From Prosopocoilus inquinatus (lineage: Eukaryota > Arthropoda > Insecta > Coleoptera > Lucanidae): a stretch of DNA of 64,000 nt. Below, piece after piece: positions 1 through 63,579 of this stretch. Within the stretch, counting starts at the first letter, position 1. Every line of letters starts with the position of its first letter. The stretch covers positions 11,612,001-11,676,000 of the forward strand of contig CM069875.1 in assembly GCA_036172665.1 (NCBI GenBank), given 5' to 3'. The position numbers were made by a program, and so were the translations under genes. A model generated the notes under the pieces. That model saw only the letters and a program-made list of their open reading frames with translations, was not told the DNA's origin and searched no databases.

Positions 1-3000
1 CAATGCAGCATTCTATGTAATATGAGCAGAAAAAGATCGATTATGTTAATGAATGATCTTTTTTCCTCTTAGAAAATCACTAACCTTTGTTGAACTTTCG
101 ATTGCGTTTTTATTTCCCGCTGTCACCTGCCTATTAATCCGTTCCTCAAAGTACGTTGCTATAAATATTAATGGAACTATTGATAAAGATACCAATGCCA
201 ATCTCCATTCGAAATAAAGCGCTAGGGCTAGAGCTATCGTCAACGTTGAAATTGAATTAAGAAGAACCACCAGAGGATGTCCTGCTGCCTGCGACCAATA
301 TATACTACTATCTGCTTCAATTTAGTGTAGTTTACTTACACCCTGTATAGCTGCAGCGTCGCTCGATAATTTAGCACATATCGCACCCACTCCGTTTTCC
401 TTTTTGTCGTACCATGCGATCTCCTGCCTCAATACCGATTCAAACATAAGTGCCCTCACTCGTTTCGTTAATTTTTCTCCCGCTATTCCTATCATATACC
501 ACTACAAAAAGACATTAGTCGACTTTAAATTTCATAATAAATTATACCTGGAAGAAAGTTGTGATTCCGCTCACTATCCCAATTATAAGAAAGTACAAGC
601 TGTATCTGTTGCCCTCGTTTCGTATTTCTTCCGGATCTTGTAGTTGGAAGATACCTATTACCTCGCCAAATACCACGGCATATACAGGAAACGATGCGCC
701 CGCAATTAAAGCAGCTATACTTCCAATTGTGATCTGCCACCATTCAGGTCGATTTATTCTTATAATTCCGGGGATGGAAGCGTGTTTGCGCGCTTCTTCC
801 TCTTCTGCAAGATTTATTTCCTGAAAATAAATAAGTAATTTTAAATTAAATTTTCGAAAAGAGTTACCTTGGCATCGTCTTCCTGTCTAAACTCTTCAAT
901 TTCGTTGTATATATCGTCCTTGAAGTTTGATTGTGAACCTTAAACATTATTACTTATTATTGGGCTGTGCAGTATTCTCAAGAAAACTTACCTTCATCTA
1001 AGTCGTCTGGGGATATTTGGGTGTTCACTAAATTATAATAAACACCTTGAAGAGCGATGAGGTTATCATGTGTTCCTTCCTCAACTATTTTTCCTTCCGA
1101 AAACACAATGATTTTGTCCGCGTTTCTTATTGTCGAGAGACGGTGAGCTACTATTATAGTGGTACATTCTTTGCTGATTGAATCTATGGCTCTTTGCACT
1201 TGTGCTTCGCTATTAGTGTCCAAAGCGGAAGTTGCTTCGTCCAAAAGCAAAATTGTCGGTTGACGTACTAAAGCTCTCGCAATTGCAATGCGTTGTTTCT
1301 GTCCTCCAGATAACTGTGAACCGCGTTCACCTACTAAAGTGTTATAACCATCGGGCAGGGTGGAAATGAAGTTGTGAGCGTTAGATTTCCTCGCCGCTGC
1401 CTCGATTTCTTTTTGTGTTGCGTCGGGCTTGCCGAACTTGATATTTTCTGCAATGGTCATCCCAAATAACACTGGTTCTTGACCTACGACACCAATTTGG
1501 TTTCTTAGCCATGCCAAATCAAATTCTCTCATATCGACGTCATCGATTTTTATCTACACAATTAGAATTAGAATCGAGATAAACAGTAAAACACACTACG
1601 AACATTTCCGGACGTTGGATCATAGAACCGTTGCATCAGTTGAATACACGTAGACTTTCCGCAACCTGAACTACCTACTAACGCCACAGTTTCTCCTGGA
1701 TTGATCTGAATATCGACGCCTTGAAGCACCTGAAATGTTTATGTTTAGTTTGGCAGTTATGTAGTGTTCTTTGAGCTTAAGAGGAGTTTATTACTTCGCT
1801 TATCGTCAACGTACAAAATTTTCTTGTATGGTTAAAACTATCCTCAAAGGAACCTTGAGGAAATATTATTTTCTATTACTAATACCCACGTGTCATTTAT
1901 TACAACAGTGATAATATACATTAGAAGGAGGACGAATGGTACAGCAAACTCACGCTGGCTCACTCCTTTACAATTTTGTACAAAAATATTTCTCTTTAAA
2001 CCTGATTCCTTGTATTTAAAATTATATTAGTTAAAACAAGAAGATTTAGATAATGAATAGGTAATGATTAAAGGAAAAAGTCAACGATATCGTAAATGAC
2101 GGTTATTCACCTTGACATCATCTCTTGACGGATAATTAAAGTGCACCCCGTTGAATAGTATACGCCCCTCGAATTTATCCAAACGTTTTCCTTGTCCTTT
2201 GCTCAGATTTATTACGGGCTCACTGTCGATAACGGAAAAGACTTTAGCAGCAGCTCCACGAGCAGCCCCAAAAATTTGTATATACGGTGCAGACATGCCC
2301 AAAGTGAATGTAGCCATTAAAATCGAGAAGAACACCGTGATTAATGTCGCGACGGTGTAGCTTCTCTCCTCAGGCGGAAGCTCCCACTCACCCAGTATTA
2401 ATCCGATGCCGTAATAGAATGACAAAGCGTACGAGCCAAACATGAAAAACCAAAGTAAACCATTGCTGATGGCCGTAAGTAACGATCGCTTGATGTTGTT
2501 CTTGCATGCAGTGATTAAATGCTCTTTATAACGGTCAATTTCCTTTTGCTGTCCGCCGAAAGCAAACACGGTCTTTATAGCACTCAAAACTTCTTCAGCG
2601 ATAGCACCTGCTGCACCGTAGGATTCCATTTCTTGCTGCGAAAATTTCGTTGTTAACTAAAAACAAAAAAGAAATCAAAACGCCTCGTCGATATACCAAG
2701 GAAATCTTACAAACGCCACGAAACCCATCGCGACGCTACTGAGTGGTAAATACGCCAAGCATATTAAGGCTAATTCCCAACCAAAAACAAAAGCGATGGT
2801 TATACCCGAAATAAAGGTGGCGATGAAGAAACAGAATGTGCCCGCCTTATCACCGAGGCCTTCTTCCAGTTTTGCTAAATCTCTGCAGAAGGAATTAGTG
2901 GTTGTTGAAAAATTGATTCAATTTGGAAAGTCTTACTCAGTAATACGGCTGGAGAAGTCGCCTGTTTTATTGAGATCATACCAGGAGACATCTTGGTTTA

Positions 3001-52985: not shown

Positions 52986-53005
52986 GCTCTTCTAGTCTTT
53001 CATAT

Positions 53006-53339
53006 TGTGGCGAGCCATTCAGCACTACGTCACACTGACGGCGTCAAGAAGTCGGTTCGCTGTTATGCGTCATCGGCCGTCACGCCACCGGGACCTACAT
53101 CGAACAGACTAGACTTTACCAGCGTAGAGAATTCGAGACGGCCGCAAAGGGATATAAAATCGGCCAAAGTTGACTCAGGAGGCAGTCGAATTCTAACGGC
53201 GATCGTCGAAGTTAGATTTTAGTGTGTAAATAAATTGTTACAAATAAATTAGTTCGTAAGCAGTATTAAATTACGGTTAAGTTTTTACCGAGTGTTTTAT
53301 TCGTTTAAATAAATAAATTTAAACCCTAGAAACGTAACA
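53006..53339 (+). repeat. 5' LTR of the Gypsy element
   Basis: Contains TATAAAA at 53153-53159, an initiator-like GGCAGTC about 30 bp downstream (near 53183), and AATAAA signals near 53228 and 53243. These give a standard U3-R-U5 layout. Confidence 0.95.
53153..53159 (+). promoter_or_regulatory. TATA box of the Gypsy 5' LTR
   Basis: TATAAAA with a CAGT initiator 30 bp downstream. The same pair is present in the 3' LTR at the matching place. Confidence 0.6.
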
Positions 53340-53358: not shown

Positions 53359-53440
53359 TTGTGCAAATAAATAAACAATTTAAAGTAAATTAAATTTAAT
53401 CAGGTTATTAAGTAAGTACAGTATCGGAAAAAAAAAAACA

Positions 53441-55451
53441 ATGGCTACTAGAAAAGTGTCGTTGAAAGACTTAAAAGTGGCCGAATTAAAAACCGAATTG
53501 GAAGAACGAGAGTTAGAAACCTGTGGTTTGAAAGGCGCACTTCAACAGCGTCTCCGATCCGATTTGTTGACAGCTGGTGAAGATCCAGAGACGTTCCTTT
53601 TCGAAATTTCGTGTGGTTCCGTCGATTTTAATAAAATCTTGAAAGATGAACTTCGACAACAATCCAGAAATTTAGAGGAAAAGCTTCTAGAACAATCTGG
53701 AAATTTCAAGGACGAACTTCGAGAACAATCCAGAAATTTGGACGAGAAGTTTCTAGAACAATCTTGAAATTTCAAGGACGAACTTCGAAAACAATCCAGA
53801 AATTTGGACGAGAAGTTTCAAGAACAGTCTGGAAATTTAGAGAAACTTCGAGAACAATCCAGAAATTTAGAGGAAAAGCTTCTAGAACAATCAGGAAATT
53901 TCAAGGACGAACTTCGAGAACAATCTGTAAACTTCAAAGACGAGTTGCAAACTAAATTGATGGAACAATCCAGAAATTTAAAGGAGAAGCTTCTAGAACA
54001 ATCTGGAAATTTGGACAAATTACAGAATAAATTGTTGGAACAATCTAGAGACTTAGACGAGAAATTTCGAGAGCACTCCAGAAATTTTGACGAGAAATTT
54101 CTAGAACAAACAAAAGGACTCGAAGATAAATTAGTGGTAAAAATTTCAGAAGAAACAAAGAACCTGCAAGAAAATGTGGAGGAAATAATATTTCAGCAGG
54201 ATAACAAAATCAAAAATCTGGAACAAATCATGGCGGGGTTGCGAGTGTTCGGGGATCAGCCACCAGTAGAAACACTAGAAAATAATGAAACCCGAATTGT
54301 GGAAGGACCAGCAGAAAATTCGAAATTAAAAATAAAATCACCGACGTTCGATGGAAAATCTTCTTGGCCCAACTACTTCAAACAGTTCGAAGCAGCAGCA
54401 AAGGCAAACAGATGGACGGCCAGCGAAAAAGCCACTTCGTTAATTGTGGCCTTGAGAGGAGACGCTATCGATGTGCTACAGACGATGCCGCCAGAGGAAC
54501 AAGAAGACTTCGACAAGCTGGTGAATAGGATGGAAATGCGTTACGGACAGGCCCATCTGACCGAGGTATACCATGCGCAGTTGAGGAATCGCTGTCAGAA
54601 ATCCGGAGAAACTCTTCAAGAATTCGAGGCGGACGTAGCGCGTCTGGCCCAGTTGGCAAATCCCACAGCTCCCGTTGAATTCCTCAAATGTTTGACGGTG
54701 CAGACCTTCATAGATGGAATCCGTGACCCAGACAACCAGCAGGCATTGAGAATGACCCATCCGAAGACGTCCAAGAACGGCTTATGCCTTGGAATTTGAG
54801 GCGGCGAGACGAGTTTCAAGAGGGCATGTCAAGGTGCGAGCGGCTATGGACTTCCAAGAGGAAGAAAAGGAAGAGTCCGCCAACGCAAAGGTGGGATCTG
54901 CTAATAAGAGGCAATCCAAGGAATATGCCACCGCCGAGGATGTTCGCCGCATTGTGGAACAGGTTCTCAAGAAGAAGAAGCCGCTGGAAAGGCCAGGACG
55001 AAGGACATGTTCGCAGGCGATGTCCAAAGCCCAGACAGGATCCAAGGAAGCCACAGTTAAACTAAGCCGGGCCGGTGCAGAGGGGCAAACTTCGACCCGT
55101 GTTCAAAGGCCCCCAAAGACGAAAGCCAAACAAGTAATATCCCTACGGCAGTTAACCAGCAGTGTCTTCGTGGATGTCACCATTGATGACATTCCTCACA
55201 CCATGTTGTTGGATACGGGTGCGACGAAGACCATCCTAAGACCCGACGTCATTAAGTCATCTGGACGCACCGAGCCGACCAAGTGGAGACTGAAAACTGC
55301 AACTGGAACATCAGCAACTGTCCACGGTGAAGTAGAGGTTATCATCACCATTGGTTCAACTCCAATAAAACACCGTGCACTGGTGGCAGATATAGAGAGG
55401 CAATTTTGGGCATGGACGTCATGTGTGCCCACGGGTTCCAATTGGACTTGA
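53441..55451 (+). pseudogene. Gypsy gag and protease region, broken
   Basis: Starts at ATG 53441. Residues 6-40 form a SAP-like helix-turn-helix (LKDLKVAELKTELEERELE). About 150 residues of 11-residue repeats (QSRNLEEKLLE, QSGNFKDELRE) follow, predicted coiled coil. Next come the gag capsid-like core (SPTFDGKSSWPNYFKQFEAA onward) and a retroviral-type protease with LLDTGATKTIL near 55207. Damage: TGA at 53765 in the repeats, a frame change near 54785, and a zinc-knuckle remnant (GHVRRRCPK) left in another frame near 55000. Confidence 0.9.
53641..54120 (+). repeat. 33-bp coding repeats within gag
   Basis: About fourteen imperfect units of 33 bp, each encoding 11 residues of the type RNLEEKLLEQS. 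They also leave long minus-strand open frames, which are shadows. Confidence 0.85.
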
Positions 55452-56086
55452 AGCGTGGCGTGATGGCGGTCAATAATAAGGAGTTGGTTCTACATCAACG
55501 AGGGGACGTGGCCGCTCGAGTAGTCCTCGCTGAAGACGTTGTATTACCCAGCAGGACTGAGGTTATCGTCGACGCAAAACTGGACGGTGTTTTTCAAGAT
55601 GGGCAAGTCATTATGGTTGAACCTAATATTGATGATCAGAAGATTGGAAGAGGAGTCCTCGTTGGGAAAATGTTGTTGACGGCGAAGGAGGAAGTACCTG
55701 TCCGCCTGATGAACGTCAATTGTTTCTCCGTCAATATCAAGACGGTTCTAAAAGGTCTCTCCTGGACAACGTGCATGGTGTACCTTGACGACATAATTGT
55801 CGTGGGAAAGACGTTCGACGACCACCTAAGGAACCTGGAAGGAGTGTTCCAGCGGCTTCGCGGAGCTGGACTAAAGCTTAGCCTCAAGAAGTGTCACCTG
55901 TTCCAGAAGGAAGTGAATTACCTGGGGCACATTGTTAATGGAAATGGAATCGCCGTGGACCCTGTGAAGATTCAGGTGGTGAAAGACTGGCCAACTCCCA
56001 GAAATAAACACCAAATAAGGAGTTTCCTTGGCCTGTGCACTTACTATCGGCGCTACGTTCCTACAGGCGGGGTAAGGCTCCCATGA
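55406..56086 (+). pseudogene. Gypsy pol: pre-RT segment joined to the end of RT
   Basis: Begins with the C-terminal side of protease (GMDVMCAHGFQLDLKRG), continues through a spacer, then jumps at about 55755 into RT at VYLDDIIVVGKTFDDHL (active-site YLDD) and runs to the LGLCTYYRRYVP motif. The RT fingers and first half of the palm are absent: roughly 150-200 residues lost at the junction. RNase H is absent beyond 56068. Confidence 0.9.
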
Positions 56087-57060
56087 GACAGTACAACGTT
56101 GGAAGTCCTTTTGAGAGAGTTGCCATCGATGTAGCCGGCCCGTTTCCAGAAACGAATGGTGGAAACAAGTACATCATCGTGGTAATGGACTACTTTAGTA
56201 AGTGGGTTGAAGCTTACGCCCTACCTAACCAAGAGGCAGTCACTATTGCGGAAGTCCTTGTCAGGGAATGGATCAGTCGGTATGGTGCACCTATGGAACT
56301 GCATTCAGACCAAGGAAGGAACTTTGAATCGGCCTTGTTCAAGAACGTGTGTACTCTGCTCGGCTTACGAAAAACTAGAACAACTGCACTCCACCCACAG
56401 TCGGACGGAATGGTGGAAAGGTTCAATAGAACCATCAACCGACATTTGTCCACGGTCGTTTCCGATCATCAGAGGGACTGGGACACGTACATACCCCTGT
56501 TTCTAATGGCATACCGCTCATCCGTTCATGAGACAACAGGGGAGACTCCCGCGAAAGTGGTATTCGGGCGAGAGCCGAGACTGCCCTGCGACCTGAAGTT
56601 TGGTGTGAAGCCTGGCGAAGTCTCTGCCGACGAAGATTACGTGAGCAAATTACGCAGGAAAATGGATGACATCCACAACCAAGTGCGTCACAATATACAG
56701 ACGGCCAGCGATCGGATGAAGGAGCACTATGACATCAACGCTCAAAACGGGGGATACCAACCTGGAATACTAGTCTGGCTTTATAACCCCCAAAGACGTC
56801 GAGGCCTCTCCCCAAAACTGCAGACCTCTTGGGAAGGTCCTTACAAAGTGATGAAACGGATCAACGACGTCGTTTACCGCATCAAGAAGGTCCCCCATGG
56901 CAAACCCAAAGTAATCCACTTCAACCGGATAGCCCCTTACCATGGAGAAACAAATGAACGGACAGTACAAAGGGCGCAAGTTTCCGAAGTGAACTTCGAA
57001 ACCTTCATGTCTCATCACGCTGAAGGAAGTAAGGCACGGTTTGGAGCGACCACGGAGAAG
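56050..57060 (+). pseudogene. Gypsy integrase, N-terminus missing
   Basis: Reads from GKAPMRQYNVGSPFERVAID in one frame through the D,D,E core: AIDVAGPF, LHSDQGRNFES and SDGMVERFNR. The C-terminal domain follows (PGILVWLYNPQRRRGLSPKL, then PYKVMKRINDVVY). The HHCC zinc-binding domain is missing. The core is open and well conserved, unlike the preceding RT. Confidence 0.93.
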
Positions 57061-57066
57061 CAACAA

Positions 57067-57511
57067 GATCTCTTTAAAGTGCCACTGGAGTACAGTCTGG
57101 CCCACTGCGTAGCAGAAGACCTGAAAATGTCCAAAGGAATTGCTCAGGTGTTTAGGAAGAAATTTGGCCAAATCGAGGAGCTCCGAAGACAGCATCCCGT
57201 GGTAGGCAAGAGCTTGCAGATCACTGATTCGACGGCAGATCCACCAGACGAAGTTAGCCATCCCCAAATTGGGCTGCGGATTGGACGGACTAGACTGGAG
57301 AGTAATTCGAAGCATGCTGGAAGTCATCTTCCACAGGACGGGAATTGAAGTTTTAGTCTGCAGCCACCACCCACAGGCAACAGTCAGCAACAGCGAAACC
57401 GTAGACTGCTACTTCTTCCAGACGGGAAGTTGCAAGAATGGGCCAGCTTGTAGATTCCGACATCCTCCTTCAAGACTATCCCAGGAACATTTCGAGACGA
57501 AACGTTTTTAA
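57067..57511 (+). pseudogene. Macrodomain (OARD1/TARG1-like) plus CCCH zinc finger at the pol C-terminus, broken
   Basis: In frame after integrase: DLFKVPLEYSLAHCVAEDLK, MSKGIAQVFRKKFG, then VVGKSL. This matches, residue by residue, the first strands and ADP-ribose-binding loop of the OARD1/TARG1 macrodomain. After a junction at about 57230-57255, another frame gives LAIPKLGCGLDGLDW and an amphipathic helix and strand, as in the family's last third, with the conserved catalytic-type Asp in GLDGL. The middle 40-60 residues, where the family's Lys lies, are deleted. A C-x7-C-x5-C-x3-H finger (CYFFQTGSCKNGPACRFRH, 57407-57463) follows before the stop at 57511. These enzymes remove ADP-ribose from proteins; the role in the element is unknown. 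Confidence 0.8.
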
Positions 57512-57522
57512 GAAGGGGGCAG
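57510..57522 (+). promoter_or_regulatory. Polypurine tract
   Basis: AAGAAGGGGGCAG lies directly before the 3' LTR, where plus-strand DNA synthesis would be primed. Confidence 0.8.
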
Positions 57523-57856
57523 TGTGGCGAGCCATTCAGCACTACGTCACACTGACGGCGTCAAGAAGTCGGTTCGCTGTTATGCGTCATCGGCCGTCAC
57601 GCCACCGGGGCCTACATCGAACAGACTTGACTTTACCAGCGTAGAGAATTCGAGACGGCCGCAAAGGGATATAAAATCGGCCAAAGTTGACTCAGGAGGC
57701 AGTCGAATTCTAACGGCGATCGTCGAAGTTAGATTTTAGTGTGTAAATAAATTGTTACAAATAAATTAGTTCGTAAGCAGTATTAAATTACGGTTAAGTT
57801 TTTACCGAGTGTTTTATTCGTTTAAATAAATAAATTTAAACCCTAAAAACGTAACA
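57523..57856 (+). repeat. 3' LTR of the Gypsy element
   Basis: Same length as the 5' LTR, with about three substitutions and no gaps (for example CCGGGGCC for CCGGGACC and CCCTAAAAAC for CCCTAGAAAC). Confidence 0.95.
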
Positions 57857-57860
57857 ATAT

Positions 57861-60496: not shown

Positions 60497-61500
60497 TCAC
60501 TCGAACCAATTTCTAAAGCACGCTTTCCACTCTAAAGATGGTACCTCAGAAACCAGTGTCCGGAATGTTTCAACCACTGCTTTAGCCGACGAAAATCGCT
60601 CACCACGCATTTTATTTTTGATATTTGGGAATAAAAAGAAATCATTAGGTGATAAATCAAGTGAATATGGACATTGAGTCATTAATTCAACATTTTTGTT
60701 AGACAAAAAATCAACTGATTGACGAGCTGAGTGAGTGCTGGCGTTGTCACGATGAAGAATAATTCGTCGATTTCGATTGTTTCTTTTTATTTGATCGATG
60801 ACTTTCGGCAAACAAATTGTAGTATACCAATCAGCATTCACGGTTTTTCGATCCTTTAAAGCCACGGTTGCTACATGTCCAGTTAAACCAAAGAAACAAG
60901 CAATCATTTGCTTCGCAGCACTGCGTGAACGCACAACTTTAGTTGGTTTTGGTTCATTTTGAGATACCCAAACGGTAGATTGTTGTTTACTTTCTGGTTC
61001 CTACGAATAGATCCACGTTTCGTCACCAGTAACTATGTTATAAACTAAATTTGAACGACCTCCGTTGAATTTCTTGAGCATTTCTTCGCACCATTTGACA
61101 CGACCCTGCTTTTGCGCTTCTGTTAAATTGTGTGGATCCAACGACTGCAAAGCTTTCGTACGTTCAAATGATCATGCAAAATTTGGTGTATTGCTTTCAT
61201 GTCAGTGCGTAAGGATGCTTGAATCGCACGGTGTGTTACATGTCGATCTCTCTCAAGCATTTCACGCACAGCATCTACATTAGTGGCAACAACAGATGTT
61301 GATGGACGACCTTCACGAAATTCATCACTGAGAGAGGTACGTCCACGCTGGTATTCGGCAAATCAATTATAAACACTGCTCTTTGATGGTGCTTCATCTC
61401 CAAAAGCCAAATGAAGCCGATCGAGGCATTGTTTCGGCGTTAGACCACATTTGAAATCGTAAAAAATCATGGCACGAAAATTTTCACGCGAAATTTCCAT
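60497..61500 (-). pseudogene. mariner transposase, DD34D, inactivated
   Basis: Begins at ATG 61500 (MEISRENFRAMIFYDFKCGL) with the mariner helix-turn-helix region. The three catalytic aspartates are all visible: GDETWIY, HRDNASTH, and 34 residues later SPNDFF. It ends near WKACFRNWFE. Damage: TGA for the Trp in VYN-FAEYQRG (near 61365), a one-base loss in the segment RWI-PHNL (near 61130), and a stop after ETWIYS (near 61005). Cut-and-paste DNA transposase by family; this copy cannot make it. Terminal inverted repeats were not found. Confidence 0.9.
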
Positions 61501-62068: not shown

Positions 62069-63093
62069 ATGCTCAAAATGGATTCAAAAATGGAAAGTAT
62101 TCTGCAAAGTATGGTCACGCTTTTGCAAGCTCAACAAGAAGAATTGCGCTTCTAAAAGAACAGCAGAAGTTTTCTACTTCAAATAAACCAATAGTGGATA
62201 ACTTAGCAGCTCGTATTGGAAGATTTACTTTTGTCGATCGATTCTACATTCTCCCATTGGTATCAACGCCATAAGATCACCTTCTCAGAAGCATCCTCAA
62301 CTCTTTCGGCAGAACTCCAGCTGTCACTTCTACTCAACGGTCTTGGTGATCAGGAATATCGTCAACTTTGTGGTCGCATTTCACCGAACAAGTCAACTGA
62401 AATTAAATTTGATGATCTTAAAATTTTGGAAGTGCTATTTTCCGATACACGCACATCATGTCAACGTCGTTTTTATACTCTTACTGCAAAGGCAACAAGC
62501 CGCAACATTGACACTGCTTTAGATGAAGTAAACCTGGAAGGAGATATATTTCCATTTGACAAATTAGATCTTGACAAGTTCAAACTCCTTTTGGCCGCAC
62601 TTCGCATGAGCGATCCTTATTATCAACCATTTAGTTCCAGTTTTACAAATGGGGCTCAACTTTGAACTGAGGCTTAAACCCTTAGCAACGATTATTTCAA
62701 CAATTGTTGTGAAGTATTTAAGCTTCGGTTCAAAGTTAAACTGTCATTGTATAACTGGGCCTTAGAACTATTATTCTAAAAGACAGTCAGACGTCGACGT
62801 TTTCTGAGATCAGGGACAAATGCCGTTCTTATAATAACCGAGTCATTGGCACAAATATTGAATGCAGAGTAGGGAATAATGCTGTGGAACTCAACGCTGT
62901 CAACTATAAAACTAAACCGACATCCGGCCAGATAAAAAAGTCTGAATCTTATTCATCGTCATGTCAAGACTGTGGATTAACAGAACACCGACGCATCGAT
63001 TGTCCATACAAAAATGCTACATGTAATTATTGCGAAATTGTTGGCCACTTGTCTAAAGTTTGCCGAAAACAGAAGGACGAGAGAGAAGGATAA
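62069..63093 (+). pseudogene. Mag-like Gypsy gag, broken
   Basis: Start MLKMDSKMESILQSMVTLLQ, then frame changes near 62147 and 62240. The capsid-like part reads WYQRHKITFSEASSTLSAEL, then SLLLNGLGDQEYRQLCGRIS. Two zinc knuckles follow: CQDCGLTEHRRIDC and CNYCEIVGHLSKVC. Between them, 62645-62765 carries a foreign piece with an inverted GGGCTCAACTTTGAA/TTCAAAGTTAAAC pattern and an ACTGGGCC end, like the family A MITEs. Confidence 0.75.
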
Positions 63094-63108
63094 CGTGAAG
63101 ATGAGACG

Positions 63109-63579
63109 TTGAAGGGAGTACGGAAACGAAATACTTTCGTTAAGACAATTTATCTTCAGGACATTCACCTTTTGAATGAGCATTACGGAAAGTTTTTCAA
63201 CGTCAGCATCAATGGAATCAATGTTAGAATGCAAGCAGACACTGGTGCTGATATTTCTACCATTGGCACGACAACTTGGAAGCAAATTGGTACACCAGTC
63301 CTCGACGAGTGCCGGGCAAAAGTTCTTAATGCGGACGGAAGCAAAATAGAAGCTCTTGGTACCTGTGAGGTCAATTTTACTTTCAACGGAAATTCCACCA
63401 CGGCCCCTGCTCTGGTTCTAAACAATGATGCATGCCTTAGTGAAAAAGTACTTTCCGGTCTTGACATCATCAAATGGACAAATGTCAATACTGCCACCCT
63501 GACTGGTGTCAGTGATAATTCGCTACAGTCGCAGTATCCACAATTATTTGGACAGGATGCTCTTGCACAAAGACGCTAG
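63109..63579 (+). pseudogene. Mag-like Gypsy protease region
   Basis: Open frame in which FFNVSINGINVRMQADTGAD contains the aspartic protease active site DTGAD, followed by the expected flap region. It ends at LAQRR and a stop. RT does not follow, so the element is truncated or interrupted by the MITE fragment that begins at about 63627. Confidence 0.8.

Follow-up and report, generated by a model that had tools for sequence, protein, structure and literature searches.

RNA viruses use macrodomains against host poly(ADP-ribose) polymerases (PARPs), and chromodomains steer integration in chromoviruses. PMC9411070 describes the cellular macrodomain protein TARG1 (terminal ADP-ribose protein glycohydrolase, also OARD1 or C6orf130) as an enzyme that removes ADP-ribose from protein glutamate and aspartate residues as well as from the phosphate ends of nucleic acids, and that undoes thymidine-linked ADP-ribosylation; for protein substrates it proposes Lys84 and Asp125 as the catalytic pair. 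Among retroelements, epsilon-like endogenous retroviruses of ray-finned fish carry a macro domain as additional open reading frames, according to PMC4977317, citing Basta 2009. Among the titles and abstract openings listed in searches of open-licence PMC papers, none reports a Gypsy element that combines an integrase with a macrodomain and a CCCH finger. Here we describe such a family of Ty3/Gypsy retrotransposons in the beetle Prosopocoilus inquinatus, starting from a stretch of 64,000 nucleotides of contig CM069875.1 (hereafter the window) in a 650-Mb assembly. The window contains a damaged 4.85-kb element flanked by long terminal repeats (LTRs; Table 1). The Gag-Pol order of the family is SAP-Gag, protease, reverse transcriptase (RT), RNase H, integrase, TARG1-type macrodomain, CCCH finger and polypurine tract.

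A sequence-only reading of this DNA had placed two pieces of an OARD1/TARG1-type macrodomain behind the integrase, one in its frame and one in a shifted frame, followed by a CCCH finger just before the polypurine tract. Both frames contain the quoted letters: the integrase frame (56008-57345) continues into DLFKVPLEYSLAHC and MSKGIAQVFRKKFG, and the second frame (57206-57508) contains IPKLGCGLDGLDW together with a C-x7-C-x5-C-x3-H finger some 40 bases ahead of the tract. Each piece separately retrieves human TARG1 from the PDB. The N-terminal piece (64 residues) matches TARG1/C6orf130 entries only among all PDB sequences, with human TARG1 as the best (E 1.5e-10), and the second frame finds human TARG1 at E 9.4e-6, ranked behind CCCH proteins. 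A macrodomain profile of 143 positions built from seven relatives (A1), when compared with all window frames of at least 25 residues, matches only these two frames at E up to 10. A chance motif is ruled out by these separate PDB searches and the profile search. The N-terminal piece alone gave no Pfam hit; the finger scores 28.7 bits against the zf-CCCH cut-off of 20.5. Profile positions 66-98 are missing from the window copy, so the middle of the domain is lost, as had been proposed, including the catalytic lysine (position 75; the catalytic aspartate is position 116).

The arrangement is a property of the family rather than of this copy. Of the 6042 first-look candidates from a search with the window integrase frame, 95 places were scored; they hold 98 matches, which sets a lower bound on the copy number of the family. 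Pieces were read at all 95 places. In 81 of the 95 copies, integrase, macrodomain and CCCH finger are joined, at constant spacing, in a single open frame that extends through the polypurine tract, and the remaining 14, among them the window copy, are without the intact arrangement. The lysine and the CGLD motif are both present in 79 of the 81 full-layout copies; one copy has valine for the aspartate and in one the motif is unmatched. Full-length relatives thus combine the three domains in one frame, and since the domains are present in 81 copies at other sites, a host OARD1 fragment inserted in the window copy only is ruled out. Together with database proteins that carry the same domains, these copies strongly support the earlier suggestion that an ancestor of the element captured an OARD1/TARG1-type enzyme.

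LTR pairs were identical in 14 of 20 copies (four of them over 298 positions only), with one difference in four copies and two in two, indicating that the family moved very recently. Two of the 20 pairs, L006 and L007, share flanks and are probably one duplicated segment. All 16 pairs with fully aligned ends have a matching 4-bp target duplication, namely ATAT (10), GTAT (3), ATAC (2) or ATTT (1), an AT-rich, ATAT-like preference. Within this abundant Ty3/Gypsy family, the window element is a recent copy that looks non-autonomous. Matches also occur at near-constant offsets on C5 (39.9-40.3 / 48.3-48.7 Mb) and C6 (~36.7-37.6 / 42.1-43.2 Mb), which suggests a segmental duplication or an assembly duplicate.

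Database proteins from Harmonia, Diabrotica, Aromia, Molorchus, Exocentrus, Gonioctena, Callosobruchus and others have the macrodomain joined to integrase or Gag/protease pieces, often together with the finger. In two further database proteins a single frame runs through the macrodomain to the CCCH motif, from RNase H through integrase in P0254 (source 'lgn') and from RT through integrase in P0272 (source 'jgi'). Macrodomain matches were present in 230 of the 337 collected proteins, and the 218 with at least 105 profile columns entered the trees and catalytic counts. Dereplication at 80% left 97 rows plus the human sequence, 70 of these 98 rows being used for the careful tree. The 97 rows are dominated by Aromia moschata, and a row was called an element when it had a CCCH pattern behind the domain or an integrase-end pattern before it. 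Element macrodomains are 48-58% identical to the first alignment row across beetle genera, and the residues corresponding to TARG1 Lys84 and Asp125 are kept in 96 and 94 of the 97 element rows, respectively; exceptions at the aspartate include P0297 (glycine) and P0327 (gap). The element macrodomain matches the TARG1 sequence at E 2e-34 and is closer to TARG1 than to other macrodomains, and a predicted model of one relative superposes on TARG1 at 0.8 Å. Descent of the macrodomain from cellular OARD1/TARG1 is strongly supported. Because the lysine and aspartate are both kept, hydrolysis is the likely activity, and we predict with good confidence that the macrodomain of complete copies is an active ADP-ribosylhydrolase.

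In the macrodomain tree, 27 window-type rows, not all of them with element parts of their own, form one clade (98/97). Nearest to it are the leaf-beetle sequences P0330 and P0332, and P0333 (30 rows together, 97/95). P0330 and P0332, from Diorhabda and Diabrotica, are large proteins with a TARG1 domain that has the lysine and aspartate; no retroelement domain was found in them, and they could be host genes that share ancestry with the element domain or arose from it. The window-type clade also includes two 'OARD1-like' proteins of hemipterans, P0129 and P0141, whose own sequences suggest that they lie in elements. The Leptinotarsa protein P0133, annotated as 'ADP-ribose glycohydrolase OARD1-like', also has an annotated integrase domain; the Leptinotarsa database genes of this name are transposon pieces, and the 'OARD1-like' genes of Diabrotica, Macrosteles and Nilaparvata very probably are as well. 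IMG/VR contained no relatives of A1 or P0335.

TARG1 domains also occur in further Gypsy families of this genome, where they stand between protease and RT or behind a distant integrase, in the latter case with no CCCH finger. A dipteran OARD1 query gave at least 151 matches in the genome (the best 150 of 1304 first-look candidates were scored). More than 20 of the matches listed lie in open frames of 1500-2016 residues, and the leaders are element-like, with 1914-1916 residues. The host OARD1 gene was not recognised among the 150 scored of 1304 candidates, below which a spliced or weaker gene could rank. Other layouts are seen in the pieces read around eight of the matches. L116 encodes a CCHC Gag and protease, the macrodomain and then RT in a 1914-residue frame without a stop. 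CCHC and RT are found by Pfam in L123, with protease-like sequence seen by eye, and L121 has an RT piece behind the macrodomain, below the Pfam cut-off; L117 and L120 are grouped with the L116 type by the macrodomain tree only, and the flank of L120 gave no Pfam hit. In L119 the macrodomain is followed by RT; a protease before it scores around the cut-off in L134, which flanks a second copy. L122 was at first considered a host exon, but protease-like sequence upstream and, downstream, sequence resembling the RT side of L119 (both by eye) make it a probable element remnant. L118 has an integrase before the macrodomain, and no CCCH finger was seen; its tail after the macrodomain (L126:1-639) contains three acidic DEIPLxEL repeats. 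The lysine and aspartate are kept in all nine aligned domains (L003, L116-L123). In the database protein P0335 (source 'lgn'), the macrodomain lies between what we read, from a sequence motif, as the end of RNase H and the integrase zinc-binding domain. TARG1-type ADP-ribosylhydrolases may be an exchangeable module that insect LTR retrotransposons have recurrently used for counter-defence, inserted in at least four lineages at three Pol boundaries (protease/RT, RNase H/integrase and the end of the integrase), a proposal for which we see almost as much chance of being right as wrong.

These positions bear on how the domain is used. In the window family and in L118, it lies in frame behind the integrase C-terminus, where targeting domains of other Gypsy elements sit, and AT-rich 4-bp duplications accompany every one of the 16 assessable insertions. 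By analogy, the macrodomain, with the finger, might bind ADP-ribose at damaged or PARylated chromatin and steer or help integration as a tether of the integrase, with no need to cut. We consider this unlikely, since in other families the domain separates protease from RT, or RNase H from integrase, and since the catalytic lysine and aspartate are kept, which is beyond the need of binding. The variable place at boundaries between Pol enzymes better suits a protein set free by the protease and speaks against a role confined to the integrase. The sequence-only reading had offered two possible uses, countering ADP-ribosylation-based defence or acting during integration; the variable place weakens the second and points to an enzyme that works separately.

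The differing positions also raise the question of how often the domain was gained, with either answer being compatible with a captured, ADP-ribose-removing enzyme. A single ancient capture, later spread between Gypsy families by recombination, agrees with the macrodomain tree: a single clade of the tested element macrodomains is not rejected in approximately unbiased (AU) tests (p 0.70, 0.76 and 0.88; 143 columns), the constrained single-clade trees found scored a higher likelihood, and with P0335, a very long branch, included, p is 0.13-0.16. By contrast, the integrase tree, for which two of 31 rows were dropped as short and macrodomain-less rows were drawn as relatives of the window integrase, rejects one clade of all macrodomain-bearing rows (p 0.023) and one clade of the window family and L118 (p 0.0034). 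The window-family integrase is 52-61% identical to three macrodomain-less integrases, versus 39% to that of L118. Because the positions in Pol differ between families, several insertions or transfers are the simpler reading, although one gain with many losses may also be compatible with the integrase-tree rejections. On balance, a single capture followed by recombination is a real possibility, which we rate somewhat below several captures from host OARD1.

Copies of the window family were also examined for selection, using 81 of the 95 loci, that is, 80 of the 81 full-layout copies and L070, which has a broken finger pattern; L065 was left out, its frame being too short upstream. The macrodomain has 38 synonymous and 40 non-synonymous variants (ratio of non-synonymous to synonymous variation, pN/pS, 0.30), the integrase 59 and 22 (0.11), the linker 9 and 8 (0.24), and the CCCH finger plus tail 14 and 18 (0.37). 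With expectations weighted for transitions, the ratio is 0.45 for the macrodomain (P 0.00038) and 0.54 for the finger plus tail (P 0.063). The macrodomain is under purifying selection, weaker than on the integrase and no stronger than on the preceding linker.

Several observations weigh against an active, selectively maintained enzyme anchored by the finger. The pN/pS of the macrodomain exceeds that of the integrase. The finger alone is near neutral (weighted ratio 0.88, P 0.5), and the case for its constraint lies in its presence across relatives, not in the selection test. Copies were chosen by protein similarity to the window, which can lower the number of non-synonymous variants wherever the query aligns; since the macrodomain part outside the query also gives a ratio of 0.47 (P 0.0067), this choice does not explain the constraint. 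One Diabrotica lineage (P0004, P0126, P0127) has arginine and glutamate in place of the lysine and aspartate, so that activity may not be needed everywhere, or the domain may be decaying there. The predicted model places the CCCH finger without confidence, and in several relatives the motif (C-x7/8-C-x5-C-x3-H) is present but under the Pfam cut-off. Window-type relatives score at most 20.7 bits and L119 scores 15.2 with Pfam PF01661 Macro, below its cut-off of 22 bits, which L116 (39.3), L118 (36.4) and P0335 (23.4) exceed. Taken at their strongest, the weaker constraint relative to the integrase, the replaced residues in Diabrotica and the lack of the intact arrangement in 14 of the 95 copies, the window copy among them, would make the domain a host sequence without benefit, carried because it is harmless. 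The synonymous excess in the macrodomain, the roughly 50% identity retained across several beetle genera with catalytic residues kept, and the occurrence of the domain in several element families at different positions already largely refute such a passenger, which is very improbable.

A captured enzyme with a role in removing host ADP-ribose is, as a whole, the best explanation, and a probable one. The enzyme would strip ADP-ribose placed by host ADP-ribosyltransferases on protein glutamate/aspartate or on nucleic acid during the life cycle of the element, at the capsid, Pol proteins, complementary DNA (cDNA) or integration site. The likeliest target would be host-placed ADP-ribose on element proteins or cDNA. 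That the macrodomain acts in this way against host ADP-ribosylation of the element is an evenly balanced proposition; more tentatively, the CCCH finger may hold the enzyme on element RNA or cDNA. A TARG1-type eraser in a recently mobile family and in other lineages would make ADP-ribosylation a candidate layer of genome defence against retrotransposons. If the domain is a recurrent module, ADP-ribosylation of element proteins or cDNA would restrict LTR retrotransposons generally in these insects.

Table 1. Features of the Ty3/Gypsy element in the window (positions are those of the window).
Feature	Position	Strand	Evidence
Target-site duplication ATAT, left	53002..53005	.	flank of LTR pair
5' LTR, TGT...ACA, 334 bp	53006..53339	+	331/334 identical to 3' LTR
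Gag start, N-terminal SAP domain	53384..53764	+	PF02037 E 8.8e-8
Gag remnant: 33-nt repeats, then Gag-like sequence	53768..54796	+	by eye and likeness to P0009
Aspartic protease region	54756..55448	+	PF13650 E 2.6e-8
RT remnant, incomplete	55331..56083	+	PF00078, profile positions 135-205 of 205 only
Integrase core and p58-type C-terminal domain	56008..57036	+	rve E 1.1e-12, Integrase_p58_C E 1.1e-11
TARG1-type macrodomain, N-terminal half, integrase frame	57037..57240	+	profile 1-65, E 1.5e-29
Macrodomain C-terminal part, other frame, catalytic Asp motif GCGLD	57212..57367	+	profile 99-142, E 1.6e-18
CCCH zinc finger C-x7-C-x5-C-x3-H	57398..57469	+	PF00642 E 1.2e-6, above cut-off
Polypurine tract adjoining 3' LTR	57510..57522	+	read in sequence
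3' LTR	57523..57856	+	3 mismatches in 334 vs 5' LTR
Target-site duplication ATAT, right	57857..57860	.	flank of LTR pair

The assignment to Ty3/Gypsy follows from the LTRs, target duplication and polypurine tract of the window element, and from the order protease, RT, RNase H, integrase, which is seen in the window pieces together with the single-frame relatives P0254 and P0272. The window copy itself is without RNase H, part of RT and the start of the integrase, and the N-terminal zinc-binding domain was not found in its integrase. The SAP domain is of a DNA-binding type. The SAP-type Gag start is shared by six of eight inspected 5' pieces of other copies (e.g. L097, L098, L100, L104), and the domain is annotated in many Aromia models too. 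Tandem repeats of 33 nt in Gag (window 53644-54132) encode an 11-residue coiled-coil-like repeat, and for the Gag remnant Pfam gives PNMA only, sub-threshold. A strict pattern found no CCHC knuckle in the window Gag frames or in 38 related models chosen by a Gag-like pattern; despite this null pattern search, the Molorchus model P0290 has a CCHC domain in its precomputed annotation. Elsewhere in the window there is an ABC transporter gene in two pieces (978-2653, minus strand), and in 62207-63576 and 60497-60997 another retroelement (DUF7083, aspartic protease) and a mariner-type transposase have left remnants. Rfam gave no match within the window.

The element domain is closest to TARG1/OARD1/C6orf130, with which it shares sequence, predicted fold and the catalytic lysine and aspartate; unlike TARG1, it sits in retrotransposon Pol, after the integrase and before a CCCH finger. 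RNA-virus macrodomains, such as those of alphavirus nsP3 and rubella p150, are also among the closest known systems. In the viral model library, the best match is VP8 of Kadipiro virus (39% identity, E 8.2e-18), a comparison by name and score. Kadipiro virus is a double-stranded RNA virus and thus another virus type. Chromoviruses, which are likewise Gypsy elements, also have an accessory domain at the integrase C-terminus; their integrase-fused chromodomain is a histone reader, whereas the present elements have an enzyme fold. The nearest precedent found is the epsilon-like retroviruses of fish, likewise retroelements with a captured macro domain gene, which is described for them as additional reading frames. 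The domain of the insect Ty3/Gypsy elements is of TARG1 type and lies inside Pol.
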